Below, piece after piece: positions 1-21,192 of a stretch of DNA of 21,498 nt. A program made the position numbers and the translations under genes. The number at the start of each line of letters is the position of its first letter. Position 1 is the first letter of the stretch. A model generated the notes under the pieces. That model searched no databases, was not told where the DNA came from, and worked only from the letters and a program-made list of their open reading frames with translations. Location of the stretch: positions 1-21,498 of IMG/VR virus record IMGVR_UViG_3300040751_001453. One strand, 5' to 3'. Origin of the DNA: a virus.

Positions 1-571
1 CTAAGCCTAAGTCTAGTCCACCTACACCTGCGCCTAGTACAGTGTTTTCACTGTCTAGGTTGTAGTCAGCTGCTGCTGTTACATCTAGGTTTGCTACGTT
101 CAATGTGTAAGCGCCTTGAATGTTGCTTACGTCTGTTACATCTGTTGTCCAGTCTGTAAGACCTACTGCAACTACTGCATCACCTACAGTCACTTGTACT
201 GCTTCTGCCATTGCTGGTGCTGCTAGTGTTTGCTCACCTTCTGCGCCTGGCATTACGCCTAGGTCATCACCAAATGCAACACCTAAGCCTGCTACACTTG
301 TGCCAACTGCCCATGTGTCTAGTGTTACTGCATTGCCGTCTGTTGCAACAAAGTCTAGATCAACTGTTGCTAATCCACCCATATCTACACCTAGGTCCAG
401 ACCCATTGTTCCACCAAACTTGTCGTTTGCTGTTTCAGCAAAGTCAAGTGATACTTCACCTGATAGTACTGGTGCTGCTACCATTGGAGTAACTTTTGTT
501 ACTGTGTCTTCAGCAAATGCTGCTGTTGAAATAGCCATAGCGGCTACTGTTGTAATAAATACATTACGCAT
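1..571 (-). CDS. Porin-like outer-membrane beta-barrel protein, 3' end outside window
   Basis: Reading leftward from an ATG at 571, the frame stays open for 190 codons to the window edge. The N-terminus is a clear Sec signal peptide: MRN, a hydrophobic stretch VFITTVAAMAIST, then AAFA with probable cleavage before EDTVTK at residue 21. The mature part is rich in Gly, Ala, Val, Asp and Thr with alternating hydrophobic/polar strands such as SLDFAE, DLGVDMGGLATVDLDF and NLDVTAAADYNLD, as in Gram-negative porins. No Cys is seen. An AAGGA ribosome site lies about 8 bases before the start. A general diffusion porin or other barrel is likely, inserted in the host outer membrane. The exact family cannot be fixed because the C-terminus, where the terminal aromatic would be, is missing. 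A host-derived gene carried by a phage is the best reading of the context. Confidence 0.75.
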   Translation of the reverse strand, partial: MRNVFITTVAAMAISTAAFAEDTVTKVTPMVAAPVLSGEVSLDFAETANDKFGGTMGLDLGVDMGGLATVDLDFVATDGNAVTLDTWAVGTSVAGLGVAFGDDLGVMPGAEGEQTLAAPAMAEAVQVTVGDAVVAVGLTDWTTDVTDVSNIQGAYTLNVANLDVTAAADYNLDSENTVLGAGVGGLDLGL

Positions 572-603
572 ATTTTAGTTCCTTTTTAATATGTATACAT
601 AGT

Positions 604-631
604 AAAGGGCAAGTAACCACACTTGCCCTTT
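604..631 (-). promoter_or_regulatory. 11-bp perfect hairpin in the porin 5' UTR (or weak aldolase terminator)
   Basis: AAAGGGCAAGT (604-614) and ACTTGCCCTTT (621-631) pair perfectly around a 6-base loop. The hairpin begins only about 4 bases after the predicted transcript start at 635, which is where stabilising 5' UTR hairpins of outer-membrane protein mRNAs sit. It also lies about 78 bases downstream of the aldolase stop and could act as a terminator, but only three U follow the stem on the minus strand. Confidence 0.55.
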
Positions 632-641
632 CACTATAGTA

Positions 642-669
642 ATTATAACATCTACTTCCGTTTTGTCGA
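642..669 (-). promoter_or_regulatory. Sigma70 extended -10 promoter for the porin-like gene
   Basis: On the minus strand a TCGACA -35 (664-669) is followed after 16 bases by TATAAT (642-647), preceded by TGT, giving a perfect extended -10 (TGTTATAAT). The predicted transcript start is near 635, about 64 bases upstream of the ATG at 571. Confidence 0.7.
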
Positions 670-708
670 TCGTTTCGAGCGTTTTTTGGGGTTTCTGTAA
701 TAATAGTT

Positions 709-1536
709 TTATTTGTGTTGCGTTTGAGCAACACATGCCTCTGTTATCATTTTAATGTTCTGTTTAATCTTTGCATTGAACTCTGCATCTGTTTGCAAAT
801 GTGCCAGTCCTTCTGATAATGCTCTTGAAAAACTAGCAGTAACGTCTGCATTAGCACTAAGCCTACGGCATGCTTCTTGTGTAGCATATCCGCCACTAAG
901 GAACACAACACGTTCTACATTAGGGAACACTGTAAGGTTGTGATACAAGTTAGGTACTTCCGGGGGTGTTAGTTTGAGAATACATTTGCCTGGATATTCA
1001 TCTAAGAACTCTTGCAAGTGATACATAAGAGCGTCTTCAACTTCAGCTTTGATAGGATGATCAATGGGCACTTCTGGTTCAATAATAGGCACAAGCCCAT
1101 AGTCCCAAATAGTACGAGCAAGTGTAAACTGTTGTTTGAGTACAGGATGTACCATTCCTGTACCGTGTACAATACTACGCATCTTAGTGCCGTAGATTTT
1201 AGGACCAATGCCATTAGTAGCCCATTCTAGCATTTGTTTTACAGGAAACTGTTTGAGTGTTCCATCTTCGTTGCATCCGCTATCAATCTTTAAGAACGTG
1301 TCAATACCTTTTTCATCCAAGATGTTAACCATTCCACGTGTAACTGTGTCTTGGTAGAGGATTGCTCCCCAGATGTTTTTGTCGTTGAAGTCAGGACTGT
1401 TGACCATTCTAAGACGCATAGCATGAACTTTCTCCATTTTATCTTCTTCTGTGTATTCTTGTCCGTAGCGTTCTAGTACTCCGCCTGTTGAACCACCACT
1501 GTGATCCATTGCTGCTATAAATCTATGATCACTCAT
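709..1536 (-). CDS. Class I fructose-bisphosphate aldolase
   Basis: This 275-residue protein matches the bacterial class I (Schiff-base) fructose-1,6-bisphosphate aldolase family in length and motifs. The family catalyses reversible cleavage of fructose-1,6-bisphosphate to glyceraldehyde-3-phosphate and dihydroxyacetone phosphate in the cytoplasm. Visible motifs in order: FIAAMDHSGGS (6-16), GAILYQDT (57-64), GTKMRS (116-121), GLVPIIEPEV (147-156), ILKLTPP (186-192, K188 the likely Schiff-base lysine), FLSGGY (212-217) and SFSRAL (235-240). The usual Gln of ALDQSGGS is His here. I chose the ATG at 1536 because GGTGA precedes it and it gives an 8-base overlap with the upstream HAD gene; an ATG at 1623 would overlap that gene by about 95 bases. 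It probably acts as an auxiliary metabolic gene tuning host carbon flow. Confidence 0.85.
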   Translation of the reverse strand: MSDHRFIAAMDHSGGSTGGVLERYGQEYTEEDKMEKVHAMRLRMVNSPDFNDKNIWGAILYQDTVTRGMVNILDEKGIDTFLKIDSGCNEDGTLKQFPVKQMLEWATNGIGPKIYGTKMRSIVHGTGMVHPVLKQQFTLARTIWDYGLVPIIEPEVPIDHPIKAEVEDALMYHLQEFLDEYPGKCILKLTPPEVPNLYHNLTVFPNVERVVFLSGGYATQEACRRLSANADVTASFSRALSEGLAHLQTDAEFNAKIKQNIKMITEACVAQTQHK

Positions 1537-1861
1537 AAGTTTCACCTGTTTCGCGAAAAAAGTTTTCGCTCCAAAATGCCTTATCGTCAATCCATACATC
1601 GTAGTGTTCTTTTTCGCCGACACTTAATTCATGATGCTTTGCGCCCCAATCCATTAGCTGTTTATAAGTAAGTTCAAAATAGTCTACGCCACTAACAGCA
1701 CCACGTGCTGTCATATATTTAATTGTATGTCCTGCGTCATATAATGCATTTACTTTTGCAATGCGCTCTGGCATCGGCGCATGAAGAGCATAGTCTTTTT
1801 TGCCGTCTGGTTTTAAAACTTCTTGACAAATGGTTCCGTCAATATCAATTACGTATTTCAT
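1529..1861 (-). CDS. Small HAD-superfamily phosphatase-like protein
   Basis: The 110-residue protein has HAD motif I as DIDGT (residues 6-10, nucleophile and general acid Asp), a motif-II-like Thr in YMTARG (about 49-54) and a C-terminal acidic motif IV in VWIDDKAF. There is no room for a large cap domain, so it is a minimal-cap HAD hydrolase of the kind found in T4-like marine phages. The substrate is unknown; a small phosphorylated sugar or nucleotide is plausible. Its start overlaps the upstream gene by 17 bases and its stop overlaps the aldolase start by 8 bases, so the three genes are translationally coupled. Adjacency to the aldolase hints at sugar-phosphate metabolism, but this is inference only. 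Confidence 0.7.
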   Translation of the reverse strand: MKYVIDIDGTICQEVLKPDGKKDYALHAPMPERIAKVNALYDAGHTIKYMTARGAVSGVDYFELTYKQLMDWGAKHHELSVGEKEHYDVWIDDKAFWSENFFRETGETYE

Positions 1862-2090: not shown

Positions 2091-2154
2091 AGTATCTTTC
2101 GTTGTAAATGGGTCCGTTCTGTTGCTAGGTGGAACCCATACCCCGGAAGCCTAA

Positions 2155-2196
2155 CTAGGCTGCCATTGCCATTTCTGGCGCTCTATTTGCGTTTGC
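2155..2196 (-). other. tmRNA proteolysis-tag reading frame
   Basis: GCA (resume codon, 2194-2196) starts the frame ANANRAPEMAMAA followed by TAG. The Ala-rich end (MAMAA) resembles C-terminal degrons recognised by ClpXP-type proteases, which prefer LAA/VAA-like tails. ANAN at the start resembles the AND/ANDN start of many bacterial tags, but the centre (RAPEM) differs from the tags I know. The tRNA-borne alanine would add one more Ala at the N-terminus. Confidence 0.85.
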
Positions 2197-2281
2197 ATTT
2201 AGAATGTTTGTTCGCGGTAACGGCGCTTACATCCCGGTAACTCCACTCTTCTATCCTGCCTGTCGATCCTATTTCAGCCCC

Positions 2282-2356
2282 ATCATAAACACACTGTTGC
2301 TCAAGGTTGCGACCCTTTATAGACTTACTGACGCTTGCACGTTCTCAGTGTGTTTA
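2282..2356 (-). other. tmRNA intervening segment with 11-bp terminal stem
   Basis: TAAACACACTG and CAGTGTGTTTA, perfect complements at the two ends of the segment (2346-2356 and 2286-2296), place the acceptor 3' end and the coding-piece 5' end next to each other. This is the expected substrate for removal of the intervening loop during maturation of permuted tmRNA. Confidence 0.8.
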
Positions 2357-2425
2357 TGGTGGAGCTGCCGGGTACCGCCCCCGGGTCCAGTTCAGTCGTC
2401 AAATCGCTTCAACATTACAAGTATA

Positions 2426-2454
2426 TTTATAACATACTTTTGAAAGCATGTCAA
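2426..2454 (-). promoter_or_regulatory. Sigma70 promoter for tmRNA
   Basis: TTGACA (2449-2454) and TATAAA (2426-2431) are separated by exactly 17 bases, with the predicted start at about 2419-2420. That start coincides with the base of the helix joining the two tmRNA pieces, so the mature acceptor piece may carry the primary 5' end. Confidence 0.8.
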
Positions 2455-2462
2455 CCATTGAT

Positions 2463-11597: not shown

Positions 11598-11897
11598 CTA
11601 TCTAAACATACTTGTGTCAGTGTAAAACGGATTGACTGTGCTATAAGGATCATCAACTGACTCAACTTCTCTTATTTCTGGAACAAAATGTTTTAACATA
11701 TTTTCAACACCCATTTTAAGTGTCATTGTACTTCCGGCACAACCTGAACATGCTCCGCCTAGTTCTAAAAGTAAGTAACCCTCATCATAGGAAACAAACT
11801 CAATGTTACCTCCATGGCTTGCTACTGACGGCTTAACATGGCTTTCTATTAATTCTTTTATTTGTATAATGATTTCTTCATCGGTACGGCTAGTCAT
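11598..11897 (-). CDS. NifU-like C-terminal domain protein (Fe-S cluster carrier)
   Basis: The 99-residue protein is a stand-alone NifU_C/Nfu domain: IKELIESHVKPSVASHGGNI (about 13-32), then LLLELGGACSGCAGSTMTLK with the CxxC cluster-binding pair (C50, C53), and GVENMLKHFVPEI. Such domains hold a 4Fe-4S cluster between two monomers and pass it to client proteins. A phage copy may keep Fe-S enzymes active or serve phage Fe-S proteins. It is the first gene after a perfect consensus promoter, with AGGAG 5 bases before the ATG. The 20-residue C-terminal tail after VESVDD has no family match known to me. Confidence 0.88.
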   Translation of the reverse strand: MTSRTDEEIIIQIKELIESHVKPSVASHGGNIEFVSYDEGYLLLELGGACSGCAGSTMTLKMGVENMLKHFVPEIREVESVDDPYSTVNPFYTDTSMFR

Positions 11898-20406: not shown

Positions 20407-20433
20407 TGAGTATAGACAATGAGGGAGACCATT

Positions 20434-21192
20434 ATGACAATAATAGAGATGACTTTTAACGAACGTTCCTTACTCTTCGCGAATCTTGCTAGTATAGCAT
20501 ATAGTAACATCAAAGATGCAAAGAGTCAAGCAAAGAAATTAGGGTTTACAACAACAGAGTTTTACGAGAAAGACGGAGCTCAAGCATATCGTTTTATGAA
20601 TAAGAACGATTTAGTAATAGCATGTCGCGGAACACAACCAACAGAGTTCAATGACATCAGTGCAGATTTAAAAGCAATACCAGTAGTAGCTGAAACTATT
20701 AGTAGAGTACATCAAGGATTCAAAGCAGAAGTAGACGAGCTATGGCCAATGATATGCGAAGACATTAACCGTAAAGCAAACTTAGGCAAGACACTTTGGT
20801 TCTGTGGACACTCACTAGGAGCGGCAATGGCAACTATAATGGCAAGCCGTTGTATGCATGACGTAGAACTTAGCGATCCAGTTGAACTGTATACGTTTGG
20901 CTCACCACGTGTGGGTTGGAGAGGTTACTGTAATAGTTTAGGTGTCGTACATCATCGCTGGAAGAACAACAACGATATTGTTACTACTGTTCCACTTGCA
21001 ATAATGGGTTATGTACATCATGGTACTCAGCATTATCTTAATGCCTATGGTAAGTATAGAAACCCAACTGGCTGGCAAATGATCAAAGATAGATGGCGCG
21101 GCATATGGATGGGGTTAAAGCAAGGTAAAGTAGATAGCTTTGGCGATCATTCAATGACTGAGTATATCAAACACATTAGTAACCTAGACTAG
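20434..21192 (+). CDS. Class 3 lipase (alpha/beta hydrolase)
   Basis: The only plus-strand gene. The 252-residue protein has the lipase_3 layout: oxyanion RGT (65-67), nucleophile elbow WFCGHSLGAA with S127 (GHSLG 125-129), TFGSPRVG (154-161), catalytic Asp in NNNDIV (D181) and catalytic His in GDHSM (H239). The likely reaction is hydrolysis of lipid esters, acting on host membrane lipids at lysis or on host storage lipids. No signal peptide is seen. I chose the ATG at 20434 (GGAG 6 bases upstream) over 20419. Its stop overlaps the convergent gene's stop by 4 bases. Confidence 0.88.
   Translation: MTIIEMTFNERSLLFANLASIAYSNIKDAKSQAKKLGFTTTEFYEKDGAQAYRFMNKNDLVIACRGTQPTEFNDISADLKAIPVVAETISRVHQGFKAEVDELWPMICEDINRKANLGKTLWFCGHSLGAAMATIMASRCMHDVELSDPVELYTFGSPRVGWRGYCNSLGVVHHRWKNNNDIVTTVPLAIMGYVHHGTQHYLNAYGKYRNPTGWQMIKDRWRGIWMGLKQGKVDSFGDHSMTEYIKHISNLD

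Follow-up and report, generated by a model that had tools for sequence, protein, structure and literature searches.

At the left end of the window, by which we mean the whole stretch of DNA analysed here (21,498 nucleotides, an IMG/VR viral fragment of 21.5 kb from which gp55 and the capsid genes are absent), lies the first part of a gene whose product is predicted, from models of complete relatives, to be a minimal phage-borne porin with 16 strands. With modest confidence, and judging fold and permeability role together, we favour the reading that this is a late, cation-favouring and receptor-poor phage porin that would raise the permeability of the host outer membrane; the passage of solutes and the timing of expression are both inferred. 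That a phage genome here encodes a porin of the outer membrane had been suggested by an earlier note made from the sequence of the window, and the fold, the signal peptide, the C-terminal phenylalanine and the phage context are all in agreement with this.

The truncated gene and the predicted barrel

The first 190 codons of the porin gene occupy positions 2–571 on the minus strand. The open reading frame starts with an ATG at 571 and stays open through base 2, where the record ends. The window copy is thus truncated by the contig end, with 190 of about 262 residues present and the last ~75 codons, including the C-terminal strands, missing. Complete copies of 251–283 amino acids are found in other viral contigs, and the window sequence is 92% identical to one of these complete proteins, L002. 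A ribosome-binding site, AAGGA, is located at 580–584 (minus strand). The gene is under purifying selection, with dN/dS values of 0.24–0.51 between the window and seven relatives.

The N-terminal residues of the window protein, MRNVFITTVAAMAISTAAFA (512–571, minus strand), form a Sec signal peptide, as the earlier note had claimed, and its n/h/c pattern and AxA motif are kept across the family. Cleavage is expected after AFA in the window protein. All full-length members possess a Sec signal, and all complete ones end with a C-terminal Phe.

The barrel prediction proposed in the earlier note was obtained from AlphaFold (AF2) models of two complete members, L002 being one of them, which are 45% identical to each other. 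In both models (pLDDT 81), 16 antiparallel strands close a barrel, whose absence the earlier note had set as a refutation. The sole long loop, with 20–22 residues, connects strands 5 and 6, which is the position of L3 in general porins, and the remaining surface loops are short, with 3–6 residues each. Alignment to the L002 model places this L3-type constriction loop of the window protein, the 22 residues DDLGVMPGAEGEQTLAAPAMAE between strands 5 and 6, at 203–268 (minus strand). The top Foldseek matches are general porins, namely the Rhodopseudomonas blastica porin, OmpU and OmpF. VIA-align to OmpU gives a Z of 20.3 for the first model (2.9 Å, 228 residues) and of 20.4 for the second (3.5 Å, 240 residues).

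The phage porin therefore resembles the general 16-strand porins (OmpF/OmpC, OmpU and the Rhodobacter and Rhodopseudomonas porins 2POR and 1PRN) in its 16-strand barrel, in the L3 loop after strand 5, in its Sec signal and in its C-terminal Phe, with VIA Z values of about 18–20. However, it has only about 240 mature residues, compared with 289–340 in 1PRN, 2POR and OmpF, possesses no long surface loops, and contains 0.9% K/R, whereas the general porins contain 3–9%. Different from them, it is encoded by a phage and belongs to no detectable sequence family.

Distribution and comparison with known phage porins

Queried with the window protein, a set of 2.9 million viral contigs gave 77 relatives, and at least 155 contigs of the same set carry relatives when the family alignment is used as the query. 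A single porin copy is present per contig in 32 of 32 larger contigs, and the porin is kept across divergent T4-like lineages. A flank of bacterial chromosome, which the earlier note had set as a refutation, is ruled out, the record being viral and the relatives lying inside contigs with T4 core genes.

No credible homologue was found in bacterial and archaeal genomes by two scans of 85,000 genomes with short peptide patterns, which distant relatives may escape, nor by tblastn in 50,697 records of cultured phages. Likewise, tblastn detected no porin homologue in plasmids, and no match by sequence was obtained among solved structures. When 40 members were scanned, none of the families in Pfam, NCBIfam and PHROG recognised the porin, the best match to a Pfam porin model having an E-value of 5e-4 in one single member, and Porin_4 was not found in 21 porin-bearing contigs. 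Profile–profile comparison with the 2POR, 1PRN and Cereibacter porins gave a weak match confined to the C-terminal part (E 0.005–0.009). Common descent with porins of this cellular type is therefore suggested by sequence, not shown.

Porins are known to be carried by phages. The Lc porin of phage PA-2 and NmpC of E. coli represent a phage-carried porin by which the outer membrane of the host is changed. Lc, which closely copies the OmpC/OmpF-type porins of its host, is found in a temperate lambdoid phage, whereas the present family, likewise phage-carried, is divergent and occurs in T4-like phages. In marine viral contigs, a viral OmpL porin is encoded downstream of amtB and glnK, and the ammonium transport genes linked to OmpL co-occur only in Flavobacteriales (PMC8115048). 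This is likewise a marine phage porin from metagenomes with a proposed auxiliary function (PMC8115048), but the present porin has its own late-type promoter and its hosts are probably alphaproteobacterial. Pelagimyophages and Melnitz encode the CsgG/CsgF curli pores, and Melnitz also a two-piece tmRNA (PMC9004378). These are again outer-membrane pores encoded by related marine T4-like phages, but CsgG is a nonameric secretion pore with a fold unrelated to that of the present porin. As a kind, phage porins are already known; as far as our searches reach, the loop-poor, Lys/Arg-poor and late-controlled form is new.

The upstream control region

The conserved element upstream of the porin family is a T4-type late octamer, NATAANTA. 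The family consensus in many lineages is TATAAATA, and the window carries TATAATTA, one base off, at 640–647 (minus strand), where upstream alignments and family counts place the octamer and where it overlaps a sigma70-like −10. The TAA-N-TA core is invariant in the aligned upstream regions. Of 48 porin genes, 33 are preceded by NATAAHTA, where 6.4 would be expected, and the octamer is at or near the background level in 20 neighbouring gene families; the metabolic neighbour genes do not have it, nor do the cell-wall hydrolase genes as a group. No octamer is found at the expected place in 12 of 44 distinct porin upstream regions. G012 and G027, two large porin-bearing contigs, contain T4 core genes, among them the gene for the late sigma factor gp55; in these contigs the octamer itself, or a form one base away from it, precedes gp18, gp20 and gp3 (tail sheath, portal and tail-completion). 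The form ahead of the portal gene in G012 is the TATAATTA variant. Some replication genes of G027 have the octamer before them too, and hence it is not confined to virion genes. Judged by its sequence, the porin octamer is a T4-type late promoter in shape, and the porin is apparently switched on late in infection; transcription may differ where the tmRNA ends directly before the porin.

Directly past the expected transcript start, alignment and covariation define a leader hairpin, AAAGGGCAAGT-GTGGTT-ACTTGCCCTTT (604–631, minus strand). Its longest stem has on average 9.4 pairs, compared with 5.8 in shuffled sequences, and 5 of 12 pairs covary by compensatory changes among 16 relatives. A hairpin at the 5′ end is known as a protector of mRNA, for example in E. 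coli ompA, and by this analogy the likely purpose of the porin leader hairpin would be an abundant protein. A plain terminator is disfavoured, as a T-run past the stem is missing from the window and from most of the A5 set to which it belongs; some lineages do have such a run, and there the hairpin may act as a terminator. The early production expected in the earlier note finds no support, the conserved upstream elements being the late octamer and the 5′ hairpin.

The extended −10 promoter to which that expectation was tied is present as a site, with TCGACA at 664–669 (minus strand) as the −35-like hexamer, 16 nt, TATAAT, and TG ahead of the −10. However, the region holds 6 sigma70-like sites against 5.2 ± 2.4 in shuffled sequence, which is no excess. 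Moreover, the small upstream ORF of relatives ends with ..RSTKRK-stop where the −35 of the window falls, and because of this coincidence with a coding end the sigma70-like site constitutes weak evidence. At 572–734 (minus strand) the window retains a relic of this pre-porin small ORF, frameshifted and shortened beside the aldolase gene.

The sigma70-like hexamers and the TG motif are what would favour an ordinary host-derived gene without a special role, or an early gene under host sigma70. We regard this as improbable, because the promoter-like sites are not above chance, the invariant final TA of the octamer is not explained by a −10 box, the gene is under purifying selection and conserved over divergent T4-like lineages, and the genome scans and the plasmid search found no cellular homologue.

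Phage neighbourhood, pore charge and proposed role

The porin contigs belong to uncultured marine T4-like phages; the capsid protein of one of them has C48C1, Melnitz and HTVC008M as its nearest phages. In the window, a two-piece tmRNA of the alphaproteobacterial type with the tag ANANRAPEMAMAA is located at 2107–2458 (minus strand; RF01849, 128 bits). In many contigs a two-piece tmRNA, its tag varying, precedes the porin, usually on the porin strand and no more than a few kb away. A search by tmRNA for the nearest cultured phage gave no match.

Among 60 porin loci, 27 have a pseudoazurin-like cupredoxin with a signal peptide directly ahead of the porin (e.g. L028:6626–7057), and a SleB-type cell-wall hydrolase with a signal peptide lies ~2 kb downstream in 26. 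DoxX (14 loci), a class I aldolase (9, including the window), a PnrA-like substrate-binding protein (8) and ribonucleotide reductase are other neighbours. The aldolase of the window is a class I fructose-bisphosphate aldolase (709–1623, minus strand), with related copies at other porin loci. The window also encodes, on the strand opposite to the porin, a class 3 lipase (20419–21192, plus strand) that has relatives elsewhere in this group of contigs, and a protein with a NifU-like iron-sulfur scaffold domain (11598–11897, minus strand), which has a relative in G019.

In that contig, G019 (IMGVR_UViG_3300027859_000890), the porin is preceded at a distance of a few kb by a coxB-ctaG-coxA operon of the aa3-type (L170:13989–16892), with COX2, CtaG/Cox11 and COX1 all over the Pfam cut-offs; after the oxidase operon come DoxX, pseudoazurin and then the porin. 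Among plasmid records, the CoxA of the operon matches that of Pseudorhodobacter turbinis best, with 80% identity, and an identical coxA is present in L185, a contig of a different metagenome. A large phage-like contig of 194.5 kb (IMGVR_UViG_3300008963_000727) carries a second, lone coxA (L187:9995–11560), which is divergent, with 49% identity, and has a lipase gene and a SleB-type hydrolase gene as neighbours. Both the alpha-type tmRNA and the phage coxA, with its 80% identity to Pseudorhodobacter, point to a Rhodobacterales alphaproteobacterium as the probable host, the host of the window itself being deduced from its relatives.

The hydrolase gene next to the porin and the late type of the promoter would fit an aid to lysis and release, in which a late outer-membrane pore and a neighbouring secreted cell-wall hydrolase together weaken the envelope. 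This is improbable in our view, since a barrel closed by 16 strands, in which the constriction loop is conserved, makes a stable pore rather than a membrane disruptor, and the hydrolase genes as a group have no octamer.

In the mature porin, the acidic residues Asp/Glu average 37.5 and the basic residues Lys/Arg 2.2, with Arg at 0.1%, compared with 10–29 Lys/Arg in a set of four cellular porins, two of which match the PDB entries 2POR and 1PRN over the full length. Lys/Arg scarcity is a trait of the porin and not of the phage, because other proteins of the same phage are far richer in Lys/Arg. The basic cluster opposite the acidic L3, which gives OmpF and the Rhodobacter porins a charge-separated eyelet, is absent, with 0–7 K/R past residue 24 in 38 members. 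Where a pore lacks basic residues, cations should be favoured over anions such as phosphate, a prediction based on composition and not on model coordinates. Alternatively, the scarcity may reflect nitrogen sparing or descent from acidic marine porins.

According to the favoured reading of a late, cation-favouring porin, the phage late transcription machinery would transcribe the gene along with the virion genes, and the mRNA, protected by its hairpin, would be long-lived. Sec would export the protein and the host BAM complex would insert it into the outer membrane, where the all-acidic pore would let through small solutes that are neutral or cationic, such as ammonium, polyamines, nucleosides and Mg2+, with anions disfavoured. 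The outer membrane of the infected cell would become more permeable while offering little new surface for the binding of other phages. Uptake of nutrients through the porin is possible.

A different use of the same protein would be surface remodelling, in which the porin occupies outer-membrane or BAM capacity and displaces host receptor porins, thereby blocking superinfection or re-adsorption of progeny. The precedent of PA-2 Lc/NmpC, the poor receptor that a nearly loop-free barrel would make, and a 5′ hairpin consistent with high output all speak for it, but superinfection exclusion is usually early whereas the porin octamer is of the late type, and we consider this role unlikely. The same late-type promoter, together with the near absence of surface loops, weakens the suggestion of the earlier note that a changed surface blocks superinfection.

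More tentatively than the favoured reading of this one porin, we propose a porin class found only in phages, with a nearly Lys/Arg-free lumen, hardly any surface loops and a late, hairpin-protected mRNA, that may reprogram the permeability of marine alphaproteobacteria towards cations and neutral metabolites without providing a receptor for competitors. If this is true, a very small natural 16-strand pore would be at hand for biophysics and nanopore work. Outer-membrane pores are the gate through which nutrients, and often phages too, enter the cell; phages would then alter the permeability of their hosts and not host metabolism alone, and what enters infected marine cells would become directly testable.
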